From contig NZ_JAAABL010000003.1 in NCBI RefSeq assembly GCF_009900765.1, positions 186,001 to 250,000 on the forward strand: DNA of 64,000 nt. Reading direction: 5' to 3'. The translations under genes and the position numbers were made by a program. Positions 42,736-48,142 of this stretch are shown here, in pieces. Each line of letters starts with the position of its first letter. Position 1 is the stretch's first letter. The stretch comes from Rhodovarius lipocyclicus. GTDB lineage: Bacteria > Pseudomonadota > Alphaproteobacteria > Acetobacterales > Acetobacteraceae. A model generated the notes under the pieces. It saw nothing but the letters and a program-made list of their open reading frames with translations, was not told the origin of the DNA and searched no databases.

Positions 42736-43203
42736 TTACTTCACCACATACAGGTCGTATTGCGGGCCGGTCGGCGGGCGCTGGCCGATGCCCACCACCA
42801 CCACGCGGTTCAGCCAGGCCAGCGAGGGCTCCGCCGTTTCGAAGCGCGCGGTCACGCGGAAGTAGTACTGGTCCACAGGCACGGCCTCGCCACGGCCCAG
42901 CGCCGCCAGAACCTCCGGCGGGCCGGCGCGGAAGCCGTTGTATTGCAGAAAGAGGTGCGCGCCGCTTTCCGTGCGCAGCGTCAGCTTCACGTCGATATGG
43001 GTGGTGCCGTCGGGCTCGATGCGCAGCCAGTCGGCGCTGGCACCCGCCACCACCTCGGCATTCAGGCCGGGGCCGGTGGCCGTGCCGCCGATCACGGGCA
43101 CGATGCGCAGGTCGTGCTTGCCGGCATCGCCGACCGGGGCGGGGGCGCCCACCTTCAGTGCCAGGGTGCACAGGAACTCGGTGTTGACGGGCAGAGGCGC
43201 CAT
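42736..43203 (-). CDS. DUF3237 family protein, under the TetR divergent region
   Basis: A 155-aa beta-barrel-type protein of the DUF3237 family, recognised from GTATGPGLNAEVVAGASADW and the LFLQYNGFR and YYFRVTARFET strands. The ATG at 43203 follows AAGGAAA. It is divergent from the TetR gene with the first TetR operator in the 109-base gap, so it is probably under the same control as the RND pump. The function of the family is unknown; binding of a small lipophilic compound is a reasonable guess. Confidence 0.8.
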   Translation of the reverse strand: MAPLPVNTEFLCTLALKVGAPAPVGDAGKHDLRIVPVIGGTATGPGLNAEVVAGASADWLRIEPDGTTHIDVKLTLRTESGAHLFLQYNGFRAGPPEVLAALGRGEAVPVDQYYFRVTARFETAEPSLAWLNRVVVVGIGQRPPTGPQYDLYVVK

Positions 43204-43284
43204 GATCGTTTCCTTGTTATAAGGGTTGCGCAGCGTGCCGGGCCGTTTCGCGCTGGACAAGCCATCGCAGGACACATAGATAAC

Positions 43285-43306
43285 TGATGATTTTTGAAAT
43301 TCATCA
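43285..43306. promoter_or_regulatory. TetR operator 1 (divergent DUF3237 / TetR region)
   Basis: A 22-bp inverted repeat: TGATGA (43285-43290) and TCATCA (43301-43306) are perfect arms, with TTT and AAA also paired inside. It ends 6 bases before the TetR ATG. It matches the reverse complement of the site at 43937-43958 at 19 of 22 positions. Confidence 0.75.
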
Positions 43307-43312
43307 CAAGCC

Positions 43313-43921
43313 ATGACCACCGCAGCCGACGCCACCCGCGCCCGCATCGCCGACACGGCCGAGGCCCTGTTCCGCAGCATGGGCTATCAGAAGACCGCGG
43401 TGGCCGACATCGCGCGCGAACTGGGCATGTCCCCGGCCAATATCTACCGGTTTTTCCCTTCGAAAAGCGCGATCAACGAGGCGATCTGCGCCCGGCTTCT
43501 GAGCAATATCGCCACCCGGGTGGAGGAGATCGCGGCCGGCCCCGGCAGCGCCGAAGCCCGGCTGCGCCAGTTGATGCAGGCGCTGCTGGCCTCCTGCCTC
43601 GACGTGTTCTTCACCGAAAAGCGCATGCACGACATGGTTTCGGCCGCGATGGAGGAGCATTGGGCCTCCATCACCCTGTTCCTGGACCGGCTGATCGCCG
43701 CCCTGCGGCGCTGCGTGGCGGATGGCATGGCCAGCGGCGAGTTCGCCCCGGGCGACGCGGACCAGGCGGCGATGATCCTGAAACTCTGCACGCTGGCCTG
43801 GTATCATCCTCAACTCATTGAGGATTGCCTGAACATGCCGGGCGAACGCCAGGATATGGCGGCAGGGCTGGAAGGCGCCTTGTCGCTGCTGATCGCGGGG
43901 CTGAAGCGCGGCTCCCGCTGA
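43313..43921 (+). CDS. TetR-family repressor of the RND pump
   Basis: A 202-aa TetR regulator with an N-terminal helix-turn-helix (about 28-50; TAVADIARELGMSPANIYRF) and a ligand-binding helical C-terminal domain. Its gene lies between two near-identical 22-bp operators, one in front of itself and the divergent DUF3237 gene and one in front of the RND adaptor gene. It should repress all three units until a pump substrate binds. The start ATG at 43313 matches the family N-terminus. Confidence 0.92.
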   Translation: MTTAADATRARIADTAEALFRSMGYQKTAVADIARELGMSPANIYRFFPSKSAINEAICARLLSNIATRVEEIAAGPGSAEARLRQLMQALLASCLDVFFTEKRMHDMVSAAMEEHWASITLFLDRLIAALRRCVADGMASGEFAPGDADQAAMILKLCTLAWYHPQLIEDCLNMPGERQDMAAGLEGALSLLIAGLKRGSR

Positions 43922-43936
43922 CCTTTCAGTAACGAC

Positions 43937-43958
43937 TGTTGATTTTCAAAAATCGTCA
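43937..43958. promoter_or_regulatory. TetR operator 2 (RND pump promoter)
   Basis: A 22-bp inverted repeat, TGTTGATTTTC (43937-43947) and AAAAATCGTCA (43948-43958), nearly identical in reverse complement to operator 1 (19 of 22). It lies 33 bases before the RND adaptor start and covers a candidate -35 box TTGATT (43939-43944). The 17-base spacer leads to a weak -10 (CATACA, 43962-43967). Confidence 0.75.
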
Positions 43959-43991
43959 GGCCATACAGGCGGCGCAGCCAGGACGGATTCC

Positions 43992-45077
43992 ATGCGCCCC
44001 ATCGCCACCCTCTCGCTTCTTCTGCTGTTGGCCGCCTGCAAGGCCGACCAGGCGGCGGAGGCCCCGCACCAGGAACCACCCACCCCCGTCCAGCTGACCG
44101 AATACCGCCCGGCCCCCACCGAGCGCCCGGCGAACCTGACCGGCGTGATCCGCGCCCGGCGGGAGGCCGATCTGGGCTTCCGCGCCGGCGGGCGCATCGC
44201 CGAGCGCCTGGTGAACCTGGGTGAGCGCGTGCGGGAGGGCGATGTGCTGGCCCGCCTCGATGCCCGCGACCTCGACCTGTCCCTGCGCGCGGCCGAGGCC
44301 GATCTGGCCGCCGCCGAGGCGCAATCCGTCCAGGCCGCCAATGATGCCACGCGCTCCGCGCAGCTGCTGGCGGCGGGGCATGTGGCGCCCGCCTTCAACG
44401 ACCAGCGCGTGGCCGCCGCCCGGGCGGCGCGTGAACGGGTGGCGAGCGCCGCCGCCAACCGCAACCTGGCCCGCAACCGCCTCTCCTACGCCACGCTGGT
44501 CGCACCCGCCGATGGTGTCGTCACCGCCATCCTGGCCGAATCCGGCCAGGTGGTGGCCGAGGGCACGCCCGTGATGCGCCTGGCCAACCCGGCCGAGCGC
44601 GAGATCCTGGTCCAGGTGCCCGAAACCCTGACCGAACGCCTGACCGACCCCAGCGCCTCCGCCAGTTTCTGGGCCCGGCGCGACGACCGGCTGCCGGTCG
44701 CCCTGCGAGAACTGGCCGCCCAGGCGGAACCCGGCCTGCGCACCTATGCCGCGCGCTTCTCCATCCCCAACGCGCCGGACTGGGCGCAGCTGGGCATGAC
44801 CGCCACCGTGCACCTGCCCGCGCGCGGCGGCATGGCGGCGCGCATCCCGCTCTCGGCGCTGCATGACCGGGGGCAGGGGCCCATGGTCTGGGCGCTGGAG
44901 GGCAGAGACCGCGTGCGCGCCGTGCCCGTCACCGTCCTCACCCTGGCCGAGACCACCGCCACCGTCACCGCCGACCTGCCGGGCGGCGCGCGCATCATCG
45001 CCATGGGCCCACAGCTGCTCGGCCCCGAAAGCCGGGTGCGCCCGGTGGACCAGCGCCTGGCGGGCACGCTGCGCTGA
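43992..45077 (+). CDS. RND efflux periplasmic adaptor lipoprotein (membrane fusion protein)
   Basis: A 361-aa adaptor that bridges the inner-membrane RND pump and an outer-membrane channel. The lipobox LLAAC gives C16 as the lipidated residue. The biotinyl-lipoyl-like halves (FRAGGRIAERLVNLGERVREGDVLARLD and ATLVAPADGVVTAILAESGQ, each read in parts) flank a helical hairpin at about 92-150. It overlaps the pump gene by one base and sits behind TetR operator 2. No outer-membrane factor gene is in the window. Confidence 0.92.
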   Translation: MRPIATLSLLLLLAACKADQAAEAPHQEPPTPVQLTEYRPAPTERPANLTGVIRARREADLGFRAGGRIAERLVNLGERVREGDVLARLDARDLDLSLRAAEADLAAAEAQSVQAANDATRSAQLLAAGHVAPAFNDQRVAAARAARERVASAAANRNLARNRLSYATLVAPADGVVTAILAESGQVVAEGTPVMRLANPAEREILVQVPETLTERLTDPSASASFWARRDDRLPVALRELAAQAEPGLRTYAARFSIPNAPDWAQLGMTATVHLPARGGMAARIPLSALHDRGQGPMVWALEGRDRVRAVPVTVLTLAETTATVTADLPGGARIIAMGPQLLGPESRVRPVDQRLAGTLR

Positions 45078-48000
45078 TGCACACGCGGATCAATCCTTCG
45101 GAGTGGGCGATCCGCAACGGCGCGCTCACCCTGTTCGCCATGATCCTGGTGCTGGCCATGGGCTTCATGGCCTGGAACCGGCTGGGCCGGGCCGAGGACC
45201 CGGGCTTCACCATCAAGGTGATGGTGATCCAGGCGCAATGGCCCGGCGCCAGCGCCGCCGAGGTGCAGGACCAGGTGCTGGACCGCATCGAGGGCCGCTT
45301 GCAGGACCTCGCCTTCATCGACACGCTGCAGAGCTTCTCGCGCCCCGGCGTGGGCACCATCACGCTGACGCTGCGCGACGACACGCCGGCGCGGCTGGTG
45401 GCCGATTTGTGGTACCAGGTGCGCAAGAAGGTGGGCGACATGCGCGCCCAACTGCCCAGCGGCGTCATCGGCCCCTTCTTCAACGACGAATATTCCGACG
45501 TCTATTCCGCTGTCATCGCGCTGACGGGTGCGGACAACGCCGAGCTGGCGCGCCAGGGTGAGCGCCTGCGCATCCGCCTGCGCCGCATCCCCGGCGTGGA
45601 GAAGGTGGTGCTGGACGGCGAGCAGCCCCAGCGCGTGCATGTGGAGGTCAGCCACGCGCGCCTGGCCACGCTGGGTATCGCGCCCGACGTGATCATCACC
45701 GCCCTGCAACGGCACAACCCCGTCACCCCGGGCGGCACGGTGGAAACCGGCTCCACCCGCATCAACCTGCGCCTGCCCGATGGGCTGGACGGGATCGAGA
45801 GCGTGGGCGCCACCCCCATCCCGCTCGATGGCCGCACCATCCGCCTGGCCGACATCGCCACCATCACCCGCGGCGTGGCCGACCCGCCGAGCACCGCCAT
45901 CCGCTTCCGGCGGGATGGGGCGGTGCTGCTCTCGGTGGTGAAGGAGCGCGGCGTGGACGTGCTGCGCCTGGGTGCCGCGCTGGAGGCGGAGCTGGACCGG
46001 ATCCGCCGCGAATTGCCGGCGGGGCTGGCGCTCAGCCTCGTCTCCGACCAGCCGCACATCGTGCGGGAGAGCGTGAACGAGTTCCTGGTAAAACTGGGCG
46101 CGGCGCTGGGCGTGGTGCTGGTGATCAGCTTCCTGTCGCTGGGCTTCCGGCCGGGGATCATCGTGGCGCTGTCGGTGCCGCTGACCCTCTCGCTCGTCTT
46201 CGCCTTCATGCTGTGGCGGGGGACGGAGCTGGAGCGCATCTCCCTCGGCGCGCTGATCCTGGCGCTGGGCTTGCTGGTGGATGACGCGATCATCGCCATC
46301 GAGGCCATGCTGGTGAAGCTGGAACAGGGCTGGGACAAGGTGCGGGCCGCGGGTTTCGCCTGGACCTCCACCGCCGGGCCCATGCTGACCGGCACGCTGA
46401 TGACCGTGGCGGGCTTCATTCCGGTGGGCTTCGCCAATTCCACCTCCGGCGAATACGCGGGCGGCATCTTCTGGGTGGTGGGCGCGGCACTGATCGCCAG
46501 CTGGGTCGTGGCGGTGGTGTTCACCCCCTGGCTGGGCGCGGCCATGCTGCGCGTGGCCCCGCATATCGGGCATGACCCGTATCAGGGCCGGTTCTCCCGC
46601 GTCCTGCGCGCGGCCGTGTCGGCCTGCGTGCGCTTCCGCTGGCTGGTGATGGCGCTGACCGTCGCCCTGCTCGTGGTGGGCTTCGTCGGCATGGGGATGA
46701 CGCGCAAGCAGTTCTTTCCCGTCTCCCAGCGGTTGGAGATCCTGGTGGATGTGGACCTGCGCCAGGGCGCCAGCTTTGGCGCGACCGACGACGTGATCCG
46801 CCGGCTGGAAGCGGCGGTGGCCGATGACCCGGATGTGCGGCACTACACCGCCTATCTGGGCGCCGGCGCGCCGCGCTTCTTCCTGGCGCTGAACCCCGAC
46901 CTGCCCAATGAGGCCTTCGGCAAGCTGATCATCGAGACCCGCGATCTGGCGGCGCGTGAGCGCCTGCGCAGCCGCCTGATCCAGATGGTGCAGGATGGCG
47001 CCTTCACCGAGGCGCGGGTGCGGGTCTCGCGCCTCGATTTCGGCCCGCCGGTCTCCTATCCCGTGCAGTTCCGGTTGATGGGGCCGGATGCGAACGTGCT
47101 GCGGCGGCTGGGCGATGAATGGGTGCATGCCCTGAACACAGTCCCCGGCGCCCGCGCCGCCCAGACGGATTGGAACGAGCGCGCGCCGGCCGTCCGGCTG
47201 GAACTGGACCTGCCGCGCCTGGCGCAGTTGGGCCTGTCGCCGCAGGCGGTGGCCAATTCGCTGGGGGCGCTGATCTCGGGCGTCACGGCCACCCAGATCC
47301 GCGAGGGCAACCGCCAGGTGGATGTGGTGCTGCGCGCCCCGCCCGAGGAACGGATGAGCCTGTCGCAATTGCCGGACCTGACGCTGGCCACGCCGGCGGG
47401 GCCCGTGCCGCTGTCGCAGGTGGCCCGGCTGGTGCCCGCGATGGAGGAGCCCATCCTGTGGCGCCGCAACCGCGAGCCCTTCATCACCATCCGCTCCGAT
47501 ATCCTGCCCGGTTATCAGGCGCCGGACGTGACCAACGCCGCCCTGCCGCTGCTGGCGCCCCTGGTCGCCGCCCTGCCGCCCGGATACCGGATGGAGGTGG
47601 GCGGCGCGCTGGAACAATCGGCCAAGGCCAATGCCAGCCTGTTCGTGCTGTTCCCGGTGATGCTGGCGGTGATGGCCGCGCTGCTGATGCTGCAATTGCG
47701 CCATTTCGGCCGCGCGGCGCTGGTCTTCGCCACGGCACCGCTGGGCATCCCGGGGGCCGCGGCGGCGCTGCTGCTGTTCGATGCCCCCTTCGGCTTCGTG
47801 GCGCTGCTGGGCGTGATCGCACTGGCGGGGATGATCATGCGCAACACGCTGATCCTGGTGGACCAGGTGCAGCAGGACCTGGAAGCCGGGCATGATCTGC
47901 GGGAGGCGATCGTGGAAAGCGCCGTGCGCCGCGCCCGCCCGGTGGTGCTGACGGCACTGGCCGCCATCCTGGCCTTCATCCCGCTGACGCAATCCGCCTT

Positions 48001-48142
48001 CTGGGGCCCGATGGCGGCGGCCATGATCGGCGGTTTGACGGTGGCGACGGTGGTGACGCTGTTCGTGGTGCCGGCCCTGTATGGGCTGGCGCTGCGCCAA
48101 CCGGCGCGGGAGCCGGAGGCGCTGCCCACCCCCGCCGAGTGA
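45077..48142 (+). CDS. RND family efflux pump permease
   Basis: A 1021-aa inner-membrane proton-driven exporter of the AcrB/HAE1 superfamily. The N-terminal helix is at about 14-30, large periplasmic loops lie at 30-330 and 560-830, and the proton-relay aspartates are in LGLLVDDAIIAIE (helix 4). The permease ends with helices 8-12, including GMIMRNTLILVDQV. It starts one base into the adaptor stop. Substrates cannot be read from sequence; TetR control suggests toxic hydrophobic compounds. Confidence 0.94.
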   Translation: MHTRINPSEWAIRNGALTLFAMILVLAMGFMAWNRLGRAEDPGFTIKVMVIQAQWPGASAAEVQDQVLDRIEGRLQDLAFIDTLQSFSRPGVGTITLTLRDDTPARLVADLWYQVRKKVGDMRAQLPSGVIGPFFNDEYSDVYSAVIALTGADNAELARQGERLRIRLRRIPGVEKVVLDGEQPQRVHVEVSHARLATLGIAPDVIITALQRHNPVTPGGTVETGSTRINLRLPDGLDGIESVGATPIPLDGRTIRLADIATITRGVADPPSTAIRFRRDGAVLLSVVKERGVDVLRLGAALEAELDRIRRELPAGLALSLVSDQPHIVRESVNEFLVKLGAALGVVLVISFLSLGFRPGIIVALSVPLTLSLVFAFMLWRGTELERISLGALILALGLLVDDAIIAIEAMLVKLEQGWDKVRAAGFAWTSTAGPMLTGTLMTVAGFIPVGFANSTSGEYAGGIFWVVGAALIASWVVAVVFTPWLGAAMLRVAPHIGHDPYQGRFSRVLRAAVSACVRFRWLVMALTVALLVVGFVGMGMTRKQFFPVSQRLEILVDVDLRQGASFGATDDVIRRLEAAVADDPDVRHYTAYLGAGAPRFFLALNPDLPNEAFGKLIIETRDLAARERLRSRLIQMVQDGAFTEARVRVSRLDFGPPVSYPVQFRLMGPDANVLRRLGDEWVHALNTVPGARAAQTDWNERAPAVRLELDLPRLAQLGLSPQAVANSLGALISGVTATQIREGNRQVDVVLRAPPEERMSLSQLPDLTLATPAGPVPLSQVARLVPAMEEPILWRRNREPFITIRSDILPGYQAPDVTNAALPLLAPLVAALPPGYRMEVGGALEQSAKANASLFVLFPVMLAVMAALLMLQLRHFGRAALVFATAPLGIPGAAAALLLFDAPFGFVALLGVIALAGMIMRNTLILVDQVQQDLEAGHDLREAIVESAVRRARPVVLTALAAILAFIPLTQSAFWGPMAAAMIGGLTVATVVTLFVVPALYGLALRQPAREPEALPTPAE

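Follow-up and report, generated by a model that had tools for sequence, protein, structure and literature searches.

Paired near-palindromic sites and a predicted TetR-family switch for a MexJK-like efflux pump in Rhodovarius lipocyclicus and related Alphaproteobacteria

The stretch of DNA analysed here, referred to as the window, comprises 64,000 nucleotides of the Rhodovarius lipocyclicus genome and includes a gene for a DUF3237 protein, a divergently oriented gene for a TetR/AcrR-family regulator (tetR), and an operon encoding the periplasmic adaptor and permease of an RND efflux pump (Table 1). All four gene calls were confirmed. The regulator matches PF00440 (47 bits) and PF17935 (62 bits), both above cut-off, and its predicted fold of ten helices (pLDDT 93) places TetR-family structures at the top of a fold search; a plasmid search returned only generic TetR names. 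The DUF3237 protein matches PF11578 with 144 bits (cut-off 24) and has solved relatives in 4pux, 3c5o and 3g7g. The best match of the permease among solved structures is MexK, with 926 bits over residues 5-1008, followed by TriC (802) and MdtB (212), and the adaptor-permease operon is MexJK-like.

Table 1. Genes, candidate operators and proposed promoter elements of the locus (window coordinates)
Feature	Coordinates	Strand	Description
DUF3237 protein	42736..43203	-	155 aa; divergent from tetR
tetR promoter (probable)	43254..43282	+	TGGACA 43254-43259, 17 bp, TAGATA 43277-43282; operator A 2 bp downstream
Operator A (candidate)	43285..43306	+	TGATGATTTTTGAAATTCATCA; 3' end 6 bp ahead of tetR start codon
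TetR/AcrR-family repressor (predicted)	43313..43921	+	202 aa; TetR_N and TetR_C_27; recognition helix MSPANIYRFF
Operator B outer half-site	43930..43936	+	TAACGAC; 6/7 match to outer arm of 36-bp Rhizobiaceae palindrome
Operator B (candidate)	43937..43958	-	reverse complement TGACGATTTTTGAAAATCAACA; 15 bp past tetR stop, upstream of pump operon
Pump promoter (possible, weak)	43939..43967	+	TTGATT 43939-43944 inside operator B, 17 bp, CATACA 43962-43967
RND periplasmic adaptor	43992..45077	+	pump operon gene 1; TIGR01730, 203 bits
RND permease	45077..48142	+	start codon overlaps adaptor stop at 45077

Two 22-bp sites, here called operators A and B, flank the tetR coding region. A first-pass annotation of the window had described them as a near-identical pair, and recomputation at the coordinates of Table 1 gave the same agreement, with A and the reverse complement of B identical at 19 of 22 positions and differing at positions 4, 16 and 20. 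Each is an imperfect dyad (18/22 for A and 16/22 for B) of low G+C content (23-27%, versus 70% for the window), and together with the sites of relatives they define a near-palindrome, TGAYGA-N10-TCRTCA, whose centre is A/T-rich. Dinucleotide shuffling of the window, repeated 100 times, gave no site match, and in 300 first-order shuffles of the two intergenic regions the best pair of 22-mers never reached 19/22, the maximum being 17. When the whole 4.59-Mb genome was searched for further targets, as the same annotation had suggested, A and B were the sole matches with at most three mismatches, and an operator model built from relatives likewise found only these two. The arm pattern with one mismatch allowed has seven more matches in the genome; these are treated as chance occurrences because none possesses an A/T-rich core, none reaches the threshold of the operator model, and most overlap long putative reading frames. 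The predicted regulon is very small, with no further good site in the genome.

Both sites are retained in Rhodovarius crocodyli (locus L033), at 21 of 22 bases for operator A and 22 of 22 for operator B, against 75% identity for the regulator itself. Operator B also possesses an outer half-site that matches the 36-bp form of the operator found in Rhizobiaceae, and its footprint is on that basis probably longer than 22 bp. In L033 and L034 the TAA stop codon of tetR forms the first part of this half-site (TAACGAC/T), so that the end of the coding region and the operator overlap.

Operators A and B were used as the sole input for a matrix, which was scanned over 80 loci encoding relatives of the regulator; nearly all of these loci, from Acetobacteraceae to Rhizobiaceae, have a site ahead of tetR, the pump or both. 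The orthologous tetR-adaptor-permease module is retained from Acetobacteraceae to Rhizobiales. The first-pass annotation had made its model depend on the paired motif being present in close relatives with the same genes, and the comparison upholds the model on this point. Among 38 Acetobacteraceae-type loci, a set that includes the window as well as unclassified Rhodospirillales and alphaproteobacterial metagenome bins, a site with at least 10 of 12 arm matches lies on the pump side in all 38 and on the tetR side in 31, so that both sites are present in 31 of 38. The background rate at the same arm threshold is 0.2-0.3% for random windows of the same loci and 1.4-2.1% for shuffles. The other 43 loci, mostly from Rhizobiales, have a site upstream of tetR in 39 cases and usually none ahead of the adaptor gene, and in Rhizobiaceae this single site is the 36-bp palindrome TTACGAC-TGACGAAATTCAAAATTCGTCA-GTCGTAA.

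Three of the four loci lacking a recognized tetR-side site in this second set can be explained. L074 and L081 have the gene order adaptor-permease-tetR, with the site ahead of the adaptor gene, and in L103 the palindrome carries NN at its centre. The L103 operator, at about 5 kb and upstream of tetR, reads ATATTTTACGACTGACGANNTCGTCAGTCGTAAAATAT, a long perfect palindrome split by the two ambiguous bases, which probably reflect an assembly gap at a hairpin and not the loss of the site. The fourth exception, Bradyrhizobium sp. 141 (L100), encodes a related TetR protein whose recognition-helix core is unchanged, yet it has no TGACGA operator, a point against the model; its adaptor gene is instead preceded by repeated elements of the type TTTAGATT...AATCTAAA.

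Because A/T-rich dyads within G+C-rich DNA can bind other proteins, the sites might instead belong to another regulator or constitute a structural element, such as a terminator or a nucleoid-protein site, with no relation to the adjacent TetR protein. The distribution of the sites leaves this reading very little credence. In ten genomes with an ortholog of the regulator, the operator model matches nowhere except at tetR or the pump, and in ten genomes without a close TetR ortholog it has no match, so that the presence of sites tracks that of the regulator. As the model was trained partly on the tested genomes, matches at their tetR loci are expected, and the weight falls on the lack of additional matches and on the lack of any in the regulator-free genomes. 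Furthermore, where tetR and the pump have come to lie apart (L069 and G035) each has its own site, and the placement of sites thus tracks the pump promoter in rearranged loci, which supports repression of the pump operon. The recognition helix MSPANIYRFF is almost invariant across 81 proteins. In one distant relative, L014 (genome G033), a TetR protein of 36% identity has the changed helix LSKAYIYKFF, and the same two-site layout, at 1363-1384 and 2077-2098, has arms changed to TGACCA...TGGTCA, a single example that hints at joint change of protein and site. The preferred reading is that the sites are operators of the adjacent regulator: they are conserved, unique in the genome, and linked to both regulator and pump.

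The position of the two sites relative to conserved promoter-like elements fits repression through a block of RNA polymerase. A generic promoter scan gave no match at A or B, and the elements listed in Table 1 are proposed from conservation, are weak matches to consensus, and have spacings that were counted by eye in relatives. With that reservation, the TGGACA-17 bp-TAGATA arrangement beside operator A is also found in L033, a TGGACA-17 bp-TATCAT/G arrangement occupies the same position in L038, L040 and L041, and the CATA downstream of operator B is kept in relatives. Operator A begins 2 bp after the proposed -10 element and stops 6 bp short of the ATG, so a bound repressor would cover the start region of tetR. 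In ten loci (L036, L048, L049, L050, L056, L059, L060, L062, L066 and L082) the last bases of operator A run into the tetR start codon (TCATGA), an overlap suggesting that tetR has a very short 5' leader or none.

Taken together, these observations make it very probable that the locus is a local, autoregulated efflux-pump switch in which operator A mediates repression of tetR by its own product, and operator B repression of the pump operon. In outline, a homodimeric TetR/AcrR-family repressor would occupy the near-palindrome TGAYGA-N10-TCRTCA at both positions: at operator A, just past the proposed -10 of tetR and spanning the region where transcription and translation of that gene start, and at operator B, in the gap between tetR and the adaptor gene and overlapping the probable pump promoter. 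When inducer is absent, the repressor would shut both promoters; a toxic substrate of the pump, bound in the C-terminal pocket of the repressor, would cause release of the DNA, and pump and repressor would then be produced together until the substrate is gone. Other local repressors suggest, by analogy, that a pump substrate is the likely inducer. Binding to the sites, repression from them, the inducer and the promoter positions are the components of this switch that we infer.

A further possibility is that repressor dimers interact across the roughly 650 bp between A and B and loop out the tetR gene, resulting in tighter repression. The pairing of A and B in 31 of 38 Acetobacteraceae-type loci could be taken to favour such an arrangement, but Rhizobiaceae do with a single site, and the distance between A and B is set by the intervening tetR gene and is hence uninformative. 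Looping was considered and support for it was not found, and it is regarded as improbable.

The divergent DUF3237 gene is the weak point of the first-pass model. That annotation had proposed a three-unit regulon, in which the TetR protein represses itself, the pump and the DUF3237 gene; operator A would then serve both directions. The tetR and pump components of the model are strongly supported by the comparative evidence, whereas the argument for DUF3237 is one of position. The divergent genes are separated by 109 bp, and operator A falls within this interval. DUF3237 stands directly upstream of tetR in 8 of the 38 loci (the window, L033, L038, L040, L041, L043, L052 and L063), with L046 as a further locus in which the two genes are farther apart. 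Between the window and L033 (L033:4416-4880) the DUF3237 protein is 97% identical, with TetR at 75% and the pump at 90%, and by this comparison it appears to be under unusually strong constraint. In addition, some members of the DUF3237 family act on phenolic dimers (PMC12607616, PMC12997858), and the pump could plausibly export phenolics. Set against these points, the conserved promoter elements next to operator A face tetR and not DUF3237, and the 40 bp proximal to DUF3237 are poorly conserved between the window and L033, with no shared promoter seen. About 81 bp separate operator A from the DUF3237 start, and the operator could sit upstream of that gene's promoter; the right half of operator A is lost in L043, L052 and L063 although DUF3237 is adjacent, and DUF3237 genes occur elsewhere, with no operator nearby, in seven genomes (G001, G002, G004, G007, G019, G023 and G028). 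The three-unit model is accordingly somewhat doubtful, and control of DUF3237 by operator A, as suggested by adjacency, is possible but less likely than not.

Comparison with known systems places the locus in familiar company. Of these, MexL-MexJK of Pseudomonas aeruginosa is the nearest with respect to the pump, the window permease being closest to MexK among solved structures, and a local TetR-family repressor has been proposed as the negative control of the mexJK operon (PMC9323910). The similarity of the pumps suggests a circuit that works like MexL-MexJK, but in the window tetR reads in the same direction as the pump, with a second operator in between. That the regulator is an ortholog of MexL was considered and rejected: the solved MexL structure (8wrf) ranks 50 in the fold search, with 17% identity and a TM score of 0.56, and MexL is unnamed among the 60 matches listed for the regulator in either sequence search. 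Judged by its predicted model, the regulator shares no more than the generic TetR fold with MexL.

AcrR and TtgR are also local repressors of RND pumps, each repressing its own gene and the pump through dyads of 20-30 bp, and TtgR is a weak sequence relative of the window regulator; the operator sequences and pump subfamilies of AcrR and TtgR are unlike those of the window system. TipR, which controls AcrAB-NodT in Caulobacter crescentus, is likewise an alphaproteobacterial member of the TetR family that represses its own gene and an RND pump. It has only four chromosomal targets, and its operator is an 11-bp inverted repeat, TGAGAATGAAC, common to divergent promoters (PMC10754441). The window operator is not of the TipR type, having TGAYGA arms that are kept across relatives.

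The logic of the circuit, in which a local repressor acts on its own gene and on a pump, is textbook and thus ordinary, but retention of the paired sites in dozens of related bacteria makes the switch well supported by sequence comparison. A literature search for earlier accounts of this operator, or for work on alphaproteobacterial orthologs (AmeR, BepR, SmeR, RmrR and IfeR), returned nothing usable, and the repressor of alphaproteobacterial MexJK-like pumps is, so far as the literature searched shows, widespread and uncharacterised. The DUF3237 family includes the decarboxylases PhcF, PhcG and PinX, which act on lignan-type acids (PMC12607616, PMC12997858), and these relatives make a phenolic substrate an attractive though speculative idea. 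Recruitment, through operator A, of a DUF3237 enzyme into the regulon of a MexJK-like pump in an Acetobacteraceae genus is a speculative and rather unlikely proposal; if true, one repressor would couple the chemical conversion of a plant phenolic with its export. Regardless of the role of DUF3237, phylogenetic footprinting has yielded an operator ready for use, TGAYGA-N10-TCRTCA, with a 36-bp extended form in Rhizobiaceae, and this should render the targets of this repressor predictable in any of these genomes.
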